From Bacteroidota bacterium (lineage in GTDB: Bacteria; Bacteroidota; Bacteroidia; Bacteroidales; PUMT01), in the NCBI GenBank assembly GCA_003551495.1, contig PUMT01000231.1, forward strand, positions 90,685-125,382: DNA of 34,698 nt. Direction: 5' to 3'. Below the pieces are notes generated by a model. It saw only the letters and a list, made by a program, of their open reading frames with translations. It was not told the origin of the DNA and did no database searches. Position numbers and translations under genes: made by a program. Shown in pieces: positions 895-13,083 of this stretch (the first letter of the stretch is position 1; the number at the start of each line of letters is the position of its first letter).

Positions 895-2286
895 ATGAGT
901 TCCGGCAAAATTACCGGTAAGGCGGAAAAAAGGATGGTATTACTGGTGGCTGCAATAGCTTCTTTCCTGACCCCTTATACCGGATCTGCCGTCAATCTTG
1001 CATTGCCTGCTATAGGCCGGGAAATGCAGGTTGATGCCGTTCTGCTTGGATGGGTCGCAACAGTTTATCTTCTTTCCTCGGCGGTTTTTCTGGTTCCTTT
1101 TGGAAGGTTAGGCGACATTTACGGACGCAGGAGAATATTTTTGTGCGGCATGATTTTGTTTTCCTTTGCTTCGGTATTGTGTGCTTTCGCCGGGAACATA
1201 TCTGCCCTTTTGGCCTTCAGGGCAATTCAGGGCGCCGGAAGTGCAATGATATTTGCAACGGGATTTGCAATTTTAACCTCAGTTTTTCCTCAAAAAGAGA
1301 GGGGTAAGGCCATGGGGGTGGCAATTGCATCAGTGTATGCAGGACTGTCGCTCGGACCCGTAACGGGGGGTGTACTTACAGAATATTTCGGGTGGAGGAG
1401 CATTTTTATATTTACTGTAATACCTGGTGTAACAGCAATAACTTTTGTAATTGCAAAAATCAAGAGTGAATGGGCTGAAGCAGGGGGAGAACCTTTTGAT
1501 ATTAAAGGTGCCCTTATTTACGGATCTTCCCTTTTCCTTATAATATACGGATTGTCAGCCCTTCCTTCATTTTATGGGTTTATTGTTGTTTTATCAGGAT
1601 TTGCTGCTTTTTTACTCTTTGTTTTTGTTGAAAACAGAACCGAATACCCTGTATTCAACATGCAGTTGTTCAGGAAGAATCGCTTATTCGCATATTCAAA
1701 TCTGGCTGCATTTATTAATTACAGTTCCACCTTTGCAGTAGCATTCCTGCTGAGTTTTTATCTTCAATCCGTTATAGGGTTAAGTGCCAGGGATGCGGGA
1801 TTGATAATGGTTTCACAACCGGTTGTGATGGTTCTGGTTGCACCTTTTTCAGGAAGGCTATCAGACCGTATAGAACCCAGATACATTTCATCTGCCGGAA
1901 TGGCCCTTACAGCAATTAGTTTGGCAGTGTTTATATTTCTCGAGTATATGAGCCTTTTTATGATCATGGCAAACCTTGTATTTCTGGGAGCAGGACTTGG
2001 CCTTTTTGTTTCTCCCAATACAAATGCAATAATGAGCTCCGTAAAGAAAAAAGATATTGGAATTGCTTCCGGATCTATGGGGACAATGAGGCTTCTGGGT
2101 CAAATGTTTTCGATGGGGATGGTTATGCTGATTTTTTCAATCTATATTGGGAGGGAAGAAATAACCCCTGGAAATACGAGTGAGTTTATTAATTCATTAC
2201 CTGTTTCATTTACTATTTTATCAGTTTTATGTTTTGCCGGAATATATGCCTCATATTCAAGAGGCAACATCAGGGCACGGAATTAA
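895..2286 (+). CDS. MFS exporter, DHA2 (EmrB/QacA-like) type
   Basis: This is an inner-membrane proton-driven exporter of 463 residues. After a short cytoplasmic N-terminus comes the DHA2-style first helix, with VNLALPAIG and then LGWVATVYLLS. The motif-A loop between helices 2 and 3 is clear (GRLGDIYGRRR), and a helix-5 motif-C region is visible (GLSLGPVTGGVL). The remainder is almost all hydrophobic segments, which fits about 14 transmembrane helices. The substrate cannot be read from sequence; multidrug or metabolite export are possible. It lies directly after dtd, with no obvious functional link, and is followed by an 81-base gap containing a promoter-like element for the next gene. Confidence 0.88.
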   Translation: MSSGKITGKAEKRMVLLVAAIASFLTPYTGSAVNLALPAIGREMQVDAVLLGWVATVYLLSSAVFLVPFGRLGDIYGRRRIFLCGMILFSFASVLCAFAGNISALLAFRAIQGAGSAMIFATGFAILTSVFPQKERGKAMGVAIASVYAGLSLGPVTGGVLTEYFGWRSIFIFTVIPGVTAITFVIAKIKSEWAEAGGEPFDIKGALIYGSSLFLIIYGLSALPSFYGFIVVLSGFAAFLLFVFVENRTEYPVFNMQLFRKNRLFAYSNLAAFINYSSTFAVAFLLSFYLQSVIGLSARDAGLIMVSQPVVMVLVAPFSGRLSDRIEPRYISSAGMALTAISLAVFIFLEYMSLFMIMANLVFLGAGLGLFVSPNTNAIMSSVKKKDIGIASGSMGTMRLLGQMFSMGMVMLIFSIYIGREEITPGNTSEFINSLPVSFTILSVLCFAGIYASYSRGNIRARN

Positions 2287-2328
2287 GCTGCAAAGCTTTA
2301 TGATGGTGGAAAAAACAAATGAATTTGT

Positions 2329-2336
2329 TAAATTTG
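2329..2336 (+). promoter_or_regulatory. Bacteroidota -7 promoter element (TAnnTTTG) before the DUF4271 gene
   Basis: TAAATTTG matches the Bacteroidota housekeeping -7 consensus TAnnTTTG and lies 31 bases before the ATG at 2368. No convincing TTTG -33 box lies at the expected spacing, so the call rests on the -7 element and its position. Confidence 0.4.
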
Positions 2337-2367
2337 CAGTTAATTTTTCAACGCTTTTCTTTTTTGC

Positions 2368-3312
2368 ATGCTAAAGGCAGGACCCGACAGGCAATCTGAT
2401 ATCCACGAAGTAATGAGATATGACACTTCCGGGAAAGGTTTTCTTTTTCCGGATGATTATTATCTAACCCCTGACCCAAATCCTCCGTTCGTTAACAAAA
2501 ATATTTTCATAACTCCTTCACCCTTAAAGGATCAAATGTATTACACTCCTGAAGAATTCTTTAGCGGGGGGAATATCCCTGCTTATACAATTTCGCCGGG
2601 ATCTTATATTTCCTATCTGTCAGGGAAAGAAGAACCCTCAGGAACATTCTCTCATGAGAATACCGATGCAATGCTGGGAATTATTTTGTTCTCTTTAATG
2701 CTTTTAACTGTTGTAAAGCTTTTTTATTCAAGGTACCTTACTTCAGTGCTTGCATCAGTTTTCAGGTATAAATTCTCATACGAACTGTATCACGACAAAA
2801 ATACAAACACCCAGAATACCCTGATTATGTTGCAATTTATATTTGCAATCAATACAGGGTTGTTTTCAATATTTGTTTTGAGGTACTTCGGGCTTGACCC
2901 GTTTCCCGGAGAGTGGGGTATCTTAATTCAATTTCTTATATGTTCGGTTGCTGCAGGGGCAATCTGTTTTTTGAAAGTCTTTATTTTAAAACTTACCGGA
3001 TATCTGTTTGCTAAAAGAGAGATATTTTCCGAATATGCCCACAATATTTCTCTGCTTGCAAAAAGCTTCGGATTATTTCTTTTCCCTGTCATTGCAGGGG
3101 CATTATTTGCACCTGACAACTGGTTGCCCTTTTTTATTTATTCAGGTCTGGCAGCTGCTATTTTATATTATATTGCAAAGATACCCAGAGGTTTCAAATT
3201 GCTGCAAAACAAAGAATTTTCTCTTTTTTATCTCTTTTTGTATCTTTGCACTGTTGAAATAATACCATTGATAATTGCGTTCAGGTTTTTTCAAACGCAT
3301 TTGGTAAACTGA
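2368..3312 (+). CDS. DUF4271 family membrane protein
   Basis: This is a 314-residue protein of the Bacteroidota-specific DUF4271 family, whose function is unknown. The first 100 or so residues are soluble and rich in proline and tyrosine (for example DDYYLTPDPNPPF). From about residue 104 onwards there are six to seven hydrophobic segments, ending in a tail (YLFLYLCTVEIIPLIIAF) that resembles the family signature. In many Bacteroidota this gene sits next to hemD, as it does here, with hemD starting 18 bases after its stop codon. The pairing suggests a role connected with tetrapyrrole synthesis or the membrane, but that is inference from position only. A TAnnTTTG element just upstream suggests this gene heads its own transcript. 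Confidence 0.85.
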   Translation: MLKAGPDRQSDIHEVMRYDTSGKGFLFPDDYYLTPDPNPPFVNKNIFITPSPLKDQMYYTPEEFFSGGNIPAYTISPGSYISYLSGKEEPSGTFSHENTDAMLGIILFSLMLLTVVKLFYSRYLTSVLASVFRYKFSYELYHDKNTNTQNTLIMLQFIFAINTGLFSIFVLRYFGLDPFPGEWGILIQFLICSVAAGAICFLKVFILKLTGYLFAKREIFSEYAHNISLLAKSFGLFLFPVIAGALFAPDNWLPFFIYSGLAAAILYYIAKIPRGFKLLQNKEFSLFYLFLYLCTVEIIPLIIAFRFFQTHLVN

Positions 3313-3330
3313 TTTTGCGCGAGATATTAT

Positions 3331-4113
3331 TTGAACAAAAAAACTACAGCCTTGAAAATCAAGACAATCTTGGTTTCGCAACCGAAACCCGAAAATGACA
3401 AATCTCCTTATTACGAACTTGCAGAAAAAAATAACCTGAAGGTTGAGTTCAGGCCGTTTATTAAAGTTGAAGGAGTTGAAGCGAAGGAGTTCAGGCAGGA
3501 AAGGATCAACATTCTTGATCACACTGCAGTAATATTTACCAGTCGTACTGCTATCGATCATTTCTTTAGAATTTGCGAGGAACTCAGGGTAAATGTGCCG
3601 GACACAATGAAATATTTTTGCATTTCAGAATCGGTAGCTCTTTATCTCCAGAAATATATAGTTTACAGAAAACGGAAAATCTTTTTCGGGAACAACAGCT
3701 TTAAAGGACTTGTAGAGCAAGACATTACAAAACATTCATCCGAAAAATTCCTGCTTCCGTTGTCGGATATCCATAAACCGGAAATACCCAGAATACTTGA
3801 CAACAACAAGATAAACTATACCAAGGCCATAATGTATAAGACAGTGAGCAATGATTTGTCAGATCTTTCGGATGTCAATTATGACGTGCTTGTTTTCTAC
3901 AGTCCCACTGGAATAAAATCCCTGTTCCAGAATTTTCCCGATTTTGTGCAAAACAATACCAAAATAGCATGTTTCGGACCTGCAACTGCAAGAGCTGTTA
4001 AAAAGGCAGGATTGAGGCTGGATGTTCATGCTCCCACCTCAGAAACACCTTCCATGACAATGGCCCTGGATAAATACATCCGGGAACACAATAAGAATAA
4101 CAACAAAAAATGA
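3331..4113 (+). CDS. hemD: Uroporphyrinogen-III synthase
   Basis: The enzyme cyclises hydroxymethylbilane to uroporphyrinogen III with inversion of ring D, in the haem, sirohaem and cobalamin pathway. Sequence conservation in the family is low. Supporting features here are the ILVSQPKP start, an IFTSRTAIDHFF segment, the DVLVFYSPTGIKSL segment and the CFGPATARAVKKAG segment, all in the family's expected order; the length of 260 residues fits. The start is a TTG codon; the frame is open back to the preceding gene's stop and has no ATG near the N-terminus, so TTG is the best choice. It appears to be translated from the same message as the DUF4271 gene. Confidence 0.88.
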   Translation: MNKKTTALKIKTILVSQPKPENDKSPYYELAEKNNLKVEFRPFIKVEGVEAKEFRQERINILDHTAVIFTSRTAIDHFFRICEELRVNVPDTMKYFCISESVALYLQKYIVYRKRKIFFGNNSFKGLVEQDITKHSSEKFLLPLSDIHKPEIPRILDNNKINYTKAIMYKTVSNDLSDLSDVNYDVLVFYSPTGIKSLFQNFPDFVQNNTKIACFGPATARAVKKAGLRLDVHAPTSETPSMTMALDKYIREHNKNNNKK

Positions 4114-9804: not shown

Positions 9805-10152
9805 ATGTCAGAAAAAAAATGGAAAAAACGAAAAGGAATAGTTTACTCAACAAATCCGGATTTTCAATTTACAGAAAAGCAAAAGGAAGAACCGGATACT
9901 CTTCCCCCGGATCAGCAGGATCTGAGGGTTATGATTGACAGGAAACAGAGAAAAGGGAAAACTGTGACTATTGTAACAGGTTTTGCCGGAAAGGAAAACG
10001 ATTTGAAAGAGCTGGGAAAACTTCTCAAATCGGGATGTGGAGTAGGAGGAACTGTCAAGGATAACCAGATACTTATCCAGGGCGATATGCATCAAAAGGT
10101 TATGGAAATCCTAAAAAGTAAGGGATACCATGTCAAAAAATCGGGAGGTTGA
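9805..10152 (+). CDS. SUI1/eIF1-like translation factor (YciH family)
   Basis: This is a 115-residue bacterial relative of eukaryotic initiation factor 1, a small cytoplasmic protein thought to influence start-codon or initiator-tRNA selection. The SUI1 domain fills residues about 48-115: RKGKTVTIVTGF, LKELGKLLKSGCGVGGTVKD, then QILIQGDMHQKVMEILKSKG. The first 45 residues are polar and probably flexible (SEKKWKKRKGIVYSTNP), as is usual for YciH proteins. It is preceded by the repeat at 9766-9790 and followed 42 bases later by the large exported protein. Its physiological role in Bacteroidota is not established. Confidence 0.93.
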   Translation: MSEKKWKKRKGIVYSTNPDFQFTEKQKEEPDTLPPDQQDLRVMIDRKQRKGKTVTIVTGFAGKENDLKELGKLLKSGCGVGGTVKDNQILIQGDMHQKVMEILKSKGYHVKKSGG

Positions 10153-10194
10153 AAAAATTGTCATCTGCAATTCACATGTAAATTGAGATATAAA

Positions 10195-13083
10195 ATGAGA
10201 TTTTTCCGGTATTCTGTTTTATTAGTTGCTATTCTATGCCTGTCAACACATAAAGGGCTTTTTGCACAATTCTATTCAACAGGTGAGCCACCTGCATCTG
10301 TTAAATGGATGCAAATAAACACAGACCGTCACCAGATCATTTTCCCTTCCGGATTTGAAATGGAGGCACAACGTATGGCCGGATATCTGGATAACGTTTA
10401 TTCTTATGTATCATGGTCGCTTGACCACGAGCCACGGAAAATACCTGTTACAATCCATAATTTCAATGCCCGTTCTAACGGAATGGTTATCTGGGCACCC
10501 AGACGGATGGAGATTTATCCGGTGCCTCCCCAACGTTTTGCAAGCAATGACTGGCTTTATACCCTGGCAGTTCATGAACAGCGTCATGTTGTACAGGTTG
10601 ATAAAATGAACCGGGGCGGAACCAGATTTCTTTCTTACCTTATGGGAGAACAGGCGCATGGTTTGTCAATCGGCCGTATTCCTTTCTGGTTTCTTGAAGG
10701 TGATGCCGTTTCAGCTGAAACCGCTCTTTCACAGTGGGGGAGGGGAAGACAATCTGCCTTTGAAATGCCCCTGAGAACAATCCTGACAAATACTGACGGG
10801 ATCTTTTCATATGACAAGTCAATGTTCGGATCGTACAGGGATTTTGTGCCGGATCACTATATATACGGTTACCATATGGTTGCTGCTTTGCGAAGTGAGT
10901 ACGGGATTGAACTCTGGCAAAACGCTCTGGACTACGTAGCTGATAACCCCTGGAGTCCGGCACCCTTCGCACAAAGCCTGAGACAACAGACAGGGAAGAG
11001 TCTTACCGGACTTCATGCAGAAGTATCTGAAAATTTGCAAATTGAATGGATAGGGAATAAAAGCTATAACTCCGATACTCAGCCATCTCCGCTGAATCAA
11101 AGGTCTTCCGATCTTTTTACCAGTTACAGGTCAGTACGCTTTCATGACGATACAACATTATTTGCACTCAAATCCGGAATTGCACAAATTGATGAGTTTG
11201 TAAGTATTTCCCAGGATGGTGAAGAGGAAACAATATACAGACCGGGGTTTTTATCTTCACATAGATTTGCATTATCCGGGAAAAGGATTGCATGGTCAGA
11301 ATTTCAGCCCGATCCGAGATGGGGACTGCGAAATTACTCTGTTATAAAAGTATATGATATTTCAACACGAACCGAAAGGGCTGTAACACATCGTACACGG
11401 TTTTTTTCACCGGTATTTGCACCTGACGGACTGTTTTTGGCGGTCATTGAAACCACCCTCAAAAACAACCATTATATTGTAATTCTGGATTCTGTTACCG
11501 GAGAAGAAGTGCGCCGCTATCCATCAGGGGAAGGTGTTCTTTCACTTACAGATCCCCGCTATACTTCCGGAGGAAACGGAATAGTTGCTGTTGCTGCCTG
11601 CAGTAAGGGGAAAAGCATTGTAAGACTCGACCTGGAAACCGGCAATTGGGATACGCTTTTGCCTCCTGCATTCAGAGATCTTACCAGACCGGTGGCAAAA
11701 GATGGAAAAGTGTATTTCCATTCCGATATATCGGGTGTTGACCAGATTTACTCGGTTCATAAGGAAACCGGAGAGTTGTACCGGATTACAGATGTAACTT
11801 TCGGGGCATTCGACCCTGAGATTTCTGCATGCGGTAAAGATATTTATTTCAGTAATTATACAGAAAAAGGCTATGATATTGTAAAAACTTCCATAAACGG
11901 GGAAGCTTTCTCCTACGGTGATCATTTTCAGGAAAGGCAAATCCGCTTTTACAAGGAGCTTAAAGACCAGGAACCCGGTGTGCCCGATCCTTCTGCTTTC
12001 CCCGACTCCACATACAATACCGAACCATATAAGAGATGGAAAAACCTGTTTAATTTCCACAGCTGGTCACCTTTCTATTTTGATTACGATGACCTTGATT
12101 TTTCGAAAGCACCTTTTTCGCCTGGTATTACCCTGTTATCACAAAATATTCTGAATACTGCAAACACCGCAGTTGGATATGCATACAAAAATGGCAACCA
12201 TGTTTTTCACGGGAATTTTGTGTACAGGGGATGGTATCCGGTTATTGAGGTGGGGTTTGATTACGGAGAAGATCCGCAGGTCTTTCAGGGGAGGGATACT
12301 GTGGGCCCCGGGCCAATACCGGGCGGAGATCTTTTAAATCTGAGATCGGTGATTTCGGTTCCCCTCAATTTTACCCACAACCGTTACAGAAGCGGGTTCA
12401 TCCCTTCAATCAGGATGAACTACAATAACTCATATTACCATTACACAAGGGAAGACGAATACAGGAGGGGAATGTTCACCGGAGAAATCAGGCTTTTTGC
12501 CTACAGATACCTCAGGCAAAGCCTCAGGGATATTAACCCGCGATGGGGTCAGTCATTCAGATTAAGGCACCTTGGAAGTCCTTTTGAAGATGAAAACCTG
12601 GGCAGTATTACATCACTTCAGGCTGCTCTGTTTTTTCCGGGTCTTTTTCCACATCACAGTATTATAATAAGGGGGGCTTTACAGAATCAGGAGCCGGAAA
12701 AATATTTAATGAGAAGTCTGGTGGAATTCCCAAGAGGCTACAACACTGAAAGGACTGAAAGGCTACAGTTGCTTCAGGCAGATTATCATTTTCCCGTTGC
12801 ATATCCCGATTTTTCAATTCCTTCAATCGTTTACCTGAAAAGGGTCAGATCGCATTTTTTTGCCGATTACGGGGCCAACCATAATCGCAGGTATGTTGAA
12901 GAACAAAACAGGATTGTCTGGGAAAGAGAGGAACTTTTCTCTTTTGGATTAGGGATAAACACCGATCTACACATTTTCCGGCTGCCGTTACCATTTGATA
13001 TAGGCGGCAGAATAGCTCATGTGCCATCAAGGGGTAAAACATCATTCACTTTCTTTTTCGGGATGGATATGAGTGGACTGTGA
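10195..13083 (+). CDS. Exported protein with HExxH peptidase-like, beta-propeller and probable outer-membrane barrel regions
   Basis: This 962-residue protein starts with a signal peptide (MRFFRYSVLLVAILCLSTHKGLFA). A gluzincin-like zinc peptidase region follows: HEQRH gives His127, Glu128 and His131, and FWFLEGDAVSAE about 45 residues later supplies the likely third ligand, the Glu before Gly. Residues about 290-600 contain TolB/WD40-like blades (GKRIAWSEFQPDPRWG; SPVFAPDGLFLAVIE; GKDIYFSNYTEKGYDIV). The last 320 residues have alternating aromatic strands (FHGNFVYRGWYPVIEVGFDY) like a surface-antigen or BamA-type barrel. ATG 10195 is preferred over a TTG four codons upstream. I do not recognise a named family. 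It may be an outer-membrane-anchored peptidase, but activity is inferred from motifs only. Confidence 0.85.
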   Translation: MRFFRYSVLLVAILCLSTHKGLFAQFYSTGEPPASVKWMQINTDRHQIIFPSGFEMEAQRMAGYLDNVYSYVSWSLDHEPRKIPVTIHNFNARSNGMVIWAPRRMEIYPVPPQRFASNDWLYTLAVHEQRHVVQVDKMNRGGTRFLSYLMGEQAHGLSIGRIPFWFLEGDAVSAETALSQWGRGRQSAFEMPLRTILTNTDGIFSYDKSMFGSYRDFVPDHYIYGYHMVAALRSEYGIELWQNALDYVADNPWSPAPFAQSLRQQTGKSLTGLHAEVSENLQIEWIGNKSYNSDTQPSPLNQRSSDLFTSYRSVRFHDDTTLFALKSGIAQIDEFVSISQDGEEETIYRPGFLSSHRFALSGKRIAWSEFQPDPRWGLRNYSVIKVYDISTRTERAVTHRTRFFSPVFAPDGLFLAVIETTLKNNHYIVILDSVTGEEVRRYPSGEGVLSLTDPRYTSGGNGIVAVAACSKGKSIVRLDLETGNWDTLLPPAFRDLTRPVAKDGKVYFHSDISGVDQIYSVHKETGELYRITDVTFGAFDPEISACGKDIYFSNYTEKGYDIVKTSINGEAFSYGDHFQERQIRFYKELKDQEPGVPDPSAFPDSTYNTEPYKRWKNLFNFHSWSPFYFDYDDLDFSKAPFSPGITLLSQNILNTANTAVGYAYKNGNHVFHGNFVYRGWYPVIEVGFDYGEDPQVFQGRDTVGPGPIPGGDLLNLRSVISVPLNFTHNRYRSGFIPSIRMNYNNSYYHYTREDEYRRGMFTGEIRLFAYRYLRQSLRDINPRWGQSFRLRHLGSPFEDENLGSITSLQAALFFPGLFPHHSIIIRGALQNQEPEKYLMRSLVEFPRGYNTERTERLQLLQADYHFPVAYPDFSIPSIVYLKRVRSHFFADYGANHNRRYVEEQNRIVWEREELFSFGLGINTDLHIFRLPLPFDIGGRIAHVPSRGKTSFTFFFGMDMSGL

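Follow-up and report, generated by a model that had tools for sequence, protein, structure and literature searches.

A predicted outer-membrane-anchored zinc peptidase with a TolB-like propeller and a putative Omp85-type barrel in the Bacteroidota

The gene and its surroundings

The window analyzed here (the whole stretch of DNA under study, 34,698 nucleotides from a contig of a Bacteroidota bacterium) carries on its forward strand an intact open reading frame that runs from an ATG at 10195 to a stop codon ending at 13083, is free of internal stop codons, and encodes 962 aa, an alternative TTG start at 10183 giving 966 aa. The gene is the only copy of its type in its own genome, and its product found no match in Pfam, even at an E-value of 1. 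The features on which the following analysis relies are these:

10195..13083, forward strand: whole gene, 962 aa, encoding a signal peptide, a gluzincin domain, a TolB-like propeller, and an Omp85-type barrel, as predicted
10195..10266, forward strand: predicted Sec signal peptide, residues 1-24, without a lipobox Cys (from the sequence, cleavage site judged by eye)
10306..11064, forward strand: predicted gluzincin-fold peptidase domain, residues 38-290 (AlphaFold2, Foldseek, HHalign)
10573..10587, forward strand: HEQRH, predicted zinc-binding and catalytic motif, residues 127-131, on helix 120-137 (conservation)
10681..10719, forward strand: PFWFLEGDAVSAE, residues 163-175, with the candidate third zinc ligand E168 and Ala171 below the zinc, helix 164-177 (invariance, ColG alignment)
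10858..10860, forward strand: Tyr222, candidate transition-state tyrosine (invariant, aligned with ColG Tyr607)
11119..11904, forward strand: six-bladed TolB-like beta-propeller, residues 309-570 (TIGR02800, PDB TolB profile, Foldseek, AlphaFold2 strands)
12055..13065, forward strand: predicted 16-stranded outer-membrane barrel of Omp85 type, residues 621-957 (AlphaFold2, and HHalign via long paralogues)
12730..12741, forward strand: PRGY, residues 846-849, between strands 11 and 12, putative equivalent of the Omp85 loop-6 VRGF/Y (conservation, collinearity with long paralogues)
12859..12873, forward strand: FADYG, residues 889-893, in strand 13, putative equivalent of the Omp85 FxDxG (conservation)
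9805..10152, forward strand: upstream SUI1-domain gene, outside the system (Pfam PF01253, E 6.3e-20)

The N-terminus, MRFFRYSVLLVAILCLSTHKGLFA followed by QF, resembles a Sec signal peptide devoid of a lipobox Cys, and Q25, the first residue past the presumed cleavage site, is kept in 101 of 104 homologues. Upstream of the target lie genes for PTPS, PolA, and the SUI1-domain protein, the latter 42 bases from the target start, and a glycosyltransferase-9 gene and the gene for ATP synthase beta follow downstream on the opposite strand, PolA and ATP synthase beta being names that we presume from reading the sequence. The SUI1 gene (YciH-like) is possibly cotranscribed with the target and adjoins it in its own group and a few others only. 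Among relatives, no conserved gene partner was found, the neighbors varying by lineage and looking like housekeeping genes, and the gene context yields no clue to a substrate.

A linkage to T9SS was also considered and rejected for want of co-occurrence among relatives. The target has no match to the T9SS tail (TIGR04183), and such tails are found in 58 of the 60 relatives, with or without a target-type gene: two of them (G023 and G030) hold 0-1 tails yet carry the gene, and four T9SS-rich ones (G045, G046, G048, and G054) are without it.

Homologues and the predicted active site

A target-type protein is encoded by 39 of the 60 relative genomes and, when only good genomes are counted, by 33 of 49, so that 16 of 49 are without one. 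Named genomes encode relatives in at least 580 candidate stretches, and nearly all of those among the 80 kept belong to Bacteroidota. One relative without T9SS tails (G023:C2:125598-131436) appears to hold tandem target-type copies, two others (G037 and G056) hold two copies each, and a target-type gene (L049:790-3606) lies on a 4.3-kb contig labeled Wenzhouxiangella, a gammaproteobacterium, which may reflect misbinning or transfer. A wider search of the phylum brought in two further divergent groups, a “mid” group of 934-1019 aa, in which HExxH mostly reads HELVH, and a “long” group of 1026-1180 aa, in which it mostly reads HEFTH and is accompanied by W-x-A-E-G-T/V-A-Q.

From HEQRH and the following WFLEGDAVSAE, the first-pass annotation had read a gluzincin zinc site, and it had named the conservation of HExxH as a check. 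Since shuffling the target protein still yields the motif in 4.8% of the copies, it is a weak sign on its own and conservation decides. In this regard, tblastn and HMM searches, in which the motif played no part, retrieved 75 full-length homologues, and HExxH is kept in 75 out of 75; judged from sequence, its conservation is beyond chance. Conserved throughout the 104 full-length homologues are H127, E128, H131, Q134, P163, W165, E168, G169, D170, A171, and E175, with the reservation that the named-genome loci were selected by the pattern PxW[FL]xEGDAV, so that residues 163-172 are biased for those loci and HExxH is unbiased. Across 86 N-domains drawn from the three groups and sharing 16-59% identity with the target protein, the invariant residues narrow down to N95, H127, E128, H131, P163, E168, G169, A171, Y222, and G225, a set that comprises every predicted catalytic residue. 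Within the target group, R130, D170, E175, and an RGR motif at 183-185 (window positions 10582-10749 span these sites) are likewise invariant or nearly so. Most of the long group instead carries T at position 130 and either T or V at 170, with no E aligned to position 175. Such a group-specific signature of the active site may bear on the choice of substrate.

Structure prediction, another check put forward, modeled both the propeller and the barrel with confidence. In the AlphaFold2 model of the whole protein (25 sequences, mean pLDDT 87.3, pTM 0.87), residues 38-290 form an α/β domain in which helix 120-137 carries HEQRH and helix 164-177 carries EGDAVSAE. Foldseek searches with the whole model being swamped by propeller matches, the N-domain was folded (86 sequences, pLDDT 93.7) and searched separately against the PDB. 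Gluzincin peptidases made up 49 of the best 50 matches, collagenases T, G, and H leading (E 1.5e-5, probability 1.0) ahead of M61, M1, and M4 enzymes, and a chain of the TFIID complex was the sole non-gluzincin among them. As modeled, the N-domain is a gluzincin, which supports the proposed zinc site with both His and the downstream Glu invariant. In the results on fold, barrel, and conservation, none of the outcomes that the first-pass annotation had listed as refuting its reading was encountered. What computation shows is a layout in three domains, a gluzincin fold, and a catalytic set that is invariant throughout.

A profile search of the N-domain, also suggested at the outset for comparison with gluzincin families, led to the same neighborhood: against PDB sequences, it returned collagenase G at a marginal E of 0.031, with the HExxH, the third ligand, and the tyrosine aligned. 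In this same marginal alignment, E168 pairs with ColG E555, A171 with ColG A558, and Y222, as counted by hand, with ColG Tyr607, a residue that touches the zinc-binding group of an inhibitor (PMC9574867). Collagenases moreover have a Gln one turn past HExxH that keeps a zinc-bound His in place and, three residues past the third ligand, an Ala that forms the floor of the zinc site (PMC3711286). The target equivalents are Q134 (104/104) and A171, both invariant in the family. The collagenase Glu located one helical turn past the third ligand becomes Val172 in the target (V in 102/104), and the invariant Glu of the target family, E175, sits at +7 from E168.

As for Peptidase_MA_2 (PF13485), the target does not reach the curated cut-off and counts as no match, and 1 of 25 members of its family is hit at E 0.036. 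By contrast, the cut-off is exceeded in three of the five long-group proteins scanned (L141, L143, and L147), the other two (L142 and L148) scoring slightly below. In HHalign, a 256-column alignment (99.5%, E 2.8e-23) joins the target N-domain with the long group, pairing HEFTHIVQ with HEQRHVVQ and PAWLAEGTA with PFWFLEGDA, and the mid group aligns with that N-domain at 99.9%. At the level of profile comparison, homology with Peptidase_MA is established through this long-group chain, the target itself being without a direct match.

Propeller and barrel

Both remaining domains had been anticipated from the sequence, and both hold up. Residues 309-570 are modeled with high confidence as 23 strands arranged in six blades, and this propeller is related to TolB by NCBIfam TIGR02800 (46.9 bits, E 1.9e-12, cut-off 343), by a profile match to PDB TolB (E 3.9e-13), and by the Foldseek matches of the whole model. 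Membership of TolB itself was rejected, as 46.9 bits fall short of the 343 required and the target possesses a barrel. The target's own genome yields 28 TolB-like propeller matches; none exceeds the TolB equivalog cut-off, so canonical TolB is not recognized in this genome.

Residues 621-957 are modeled, again with high confidence, as 16 strands, which is the strand number of Omp85 barrels. Two conserved motifs, PRGY (R847 in 94/104, G848 in 102/104) and FADYG (F889 in 100/104, D891 in 99/104), fall where Omp85 proteins such as BamA and FhaC carry the VRGF/Y of loop 6 and the FxDxG of strand 13, and PRGY is collinear with the MRGY of the long paralogues. Direct comparison of the target barrel with BamA barrels by HHalign was not significant (0.5%), neither barrel profile matched a PDB chain, and PF01103 did not match the target; assignment to Omp85 therefore relies on the number of strands, on the motifs, and on a chain that passes by way of the long paralogues. 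In this chain, target and long-group barrels share a 315-column alignment (94.8%, E 5e-8), which reached 88.6% when a different subset was used, and the long-group barrel is in turn linked to BamA at 97.3% (E 2.3e-11) against 0.2% for a FadL control. On this modeled and profile-based footing, the barrel is probably of Omp85 type, its sequence link to BamA being indirect, via longer paralogues. No POTRA domain was found in the target; according to a 2014 survey, non-POTRA Omp85 subfamilies, WD40-Omp85 included, are also without one (PMC4104836).

The same genome encodes a second protein of this architecture, of 1033 aa (L196; G000:C136:34000-39500, ORF 920-4018, reverse strand), which displays HELVH...WLVEGMAEY and passes the Pfam cut-offs for PD40 and Omp85, Peptidase_MA_2 remaining below its own. 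Two of its domains being visible to Pfam and the third nearly so, the architecture is present in this genome in a more recognizable form as well.

Proposed function and relation to known systems

We propose, with a probability of about 0.6, that the target is a zinc peptidase which, anchored in the outer membrane and facing the periplasm, processes envelope proteins or clears them away, its propeller docking or gating substrates. For this protein, we infer the binding of zinc, the activity, the periplasmic orientation, the role of the propeller, and the class of substrate. The exported peptidase would be tethered to the outer membrane by a 16-stranded Omp85-type barrel of its own, its gluzincin domain and six-bladed propeller facing the periplasm; the zinc would be bound by H127, H131, and E168, E128 would activate the attacking water, Y222 would stabilize the transition state, and the propeller would probably dock or gate over the active site. 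The likely task, carried out at the outer membrane's inner face, would be to process, trim, or clear proteins or peptides of the envelope. With regard to orientation, a signal peptide together with an even-stranded barrel, both ends of which would be periplasmic, would place the peptidase and the propeller in the periplasm. In PlpD, another fusion of an enzyme with an Omp85 barrel, the enzyme was experimentally shown to be periplasmic, which overturned an earlier secretion model (PMC11116518). Barrel topology and this precedent favor a periplasm-facing peptidase.

It is also conceivable, if rather unlikely, that the target works as a machine of Omp85 type for assembly or translocation, with gluzincin domain and propeller taking the place of POTRA as modules that handle substrates, and with a peptidase that removes failed substrates or whose activity is secondary. 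The modeled 16-stranded barrel and its conserved RGY and FxD motifs would suit such a role, as would the general activity of Omp85 proteins in assembling or translocating proteins, which the 2014 survey also proposes for WD40-Omp85 (PMC4104836), and a precedent exists in BepA of Escherichia coli, a zinc peptidase reported to help an outer-membrane protein as well as to degrade it (PMC8423444). However, the target is without POTRA, PlpD illustrates that fusing an enzyme to an Omp85 barrel does not by itself imply a role in assembly (PMC11116518), and the absence of target-type proteins from 16 of 49 good relatives implies that any assembly role is not universal. Equally doubtful is the bolder form of this idea, an assembly-and-destroy machine of the Bacteroidota in which an Omp85 barrel would handle clients at its gate, and a built-in collagenase-like peptidase with its propeller would trim or destroy them, without POTRA.

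The resemblance of the N-domain to secreted collagenases, its nearest Foldseek fold, could alternatively hint at a digestive peptidase displayed with its propeller outside the cell, the barrel acting as transporter or anchor, and Bacteroidota often display surface machinery, their BAM complex being largely extracellular (PMC12578637). We regard this as improbable, for neither a T9SS tail (TIGR04183) nor a lipobox is recognized in the target, the gene does not follow T9SS across relatives (G023 and G030 versus G045, G046, G048, and G054), and a like claim for PlpD was overturned in favor of the periplasm (PMC11116518). Dead peptidase folds usually lose some catalytic residues, whereas all predicted catalytic and zinc-binding residues are here invariant across groups less than 20% identical to the target, which makes a catalytically dead, structural protein that only binds very unlikely, even if the collagenase Glu one turn past the third ligand is absent.

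Returning to the periplasm-facing peptidase, its significance lies in that fusions of a propeller with an Omp85 barrel have figured in listings since 2014 with no function attached. An intact and invariant predicted peptidase site in a widespread, phylum-wide group makes what was an “unknown outer-membrane protein” open to testing as an enzyme; the residues to mutate can be named (H127, E128, H131, E168, and Y222), and cultured hosts exist. It points to a predicted proteolytic activity anchored in the outer membrane of Bacteroidota, of a kind that escapes general annotation, as the target is without a Pfam match.

Among peptidases, the M9 collagenases (ColG, ColH, and ColT) are the nearest solved fold to the N-domain, with which they have in common the HExxH, the Glu of W-x-x-E-G-x-A, the Gln, the Ala under the zinc, and the equivalent of Tyr607. 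The target differs from them in that no activator or collagen-recruitment domain is seen, the gap to the third ligand is longer, Val rather than Glu stands at +4, and the sequence match reaches only E 0.03. Peptidase_MA_2 (PF13485) is matched over its cut-off by long paralogues, the target itself falling below. TolB has the six-bladed propeller in common with the target, with clear sequence similarity, but is soluble, has no barrel, and bears a Rossmann-like N-domain.

PF00149, which we take to be the calcineurin-like phosphoesterase domain, offers no precedent for a zinc peptidase of this kind, nor does an Omp85 subfamily that bears it. Such is the “Metallo” subfamily, called metalloprotease with that domain cited in the accessible part of the 2014 survey (PMC4104836). 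The same part of that work, by Heinz and Lithgow, defined WD40-Omp85 as a propeller-barrel subfamily and likened it to a BamA-BamB fusion; as in the target, a TolB-like propeller lies directly N-terminal to an Omp85-type barrel without POTRA, but the subfamily is described there with only the propeller before the barrel and with no mention of the zinc peptidase domain that the target has (PMC4104836). OMP-TolB-like and FhaC-TolB-like proteins, proposed in 2025 as TolB ancestors, similarly combine a barrel, a periplasmic six-bladed propeller, and an adjacent N-terminal domain; this domain is given as a “Rossmann-fold” when it is a predicted gluzincin peptidase in the target, and the words “zinc,” “metallo,” and “Omp85” are absent from the main text of that paper (PMC12204202). 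The first-pass annotation could not match the combination to a characterized protein, and this still holds: the architecture appears in these sequence and structure surveys, and no experimentally characterized member was found. Among open-licence papers, we found no report that combines gluzincin (Peptidase_MA), Omp85, and propeller (PD40). The propeller-Omp85 architecture is thus already known, and an invariant zinc-peptidase site within it is apparently unreported. The authors of the PlpD study indeed noted in 2024 that WD40-like and metalloprotease Omp85 proteins were still not well characterized (PMC11116518). PlpD, the patatin-Omp85 fusion of Pseudomonas aeruginosa, resembles the target in carrying an enzyme domain, periplasmic in its case, before an Omp85 barrel, and differs from it in pairing a lipase-type domain with one POTRA where the target pairs a predicted zinc peptidase with a propeller.
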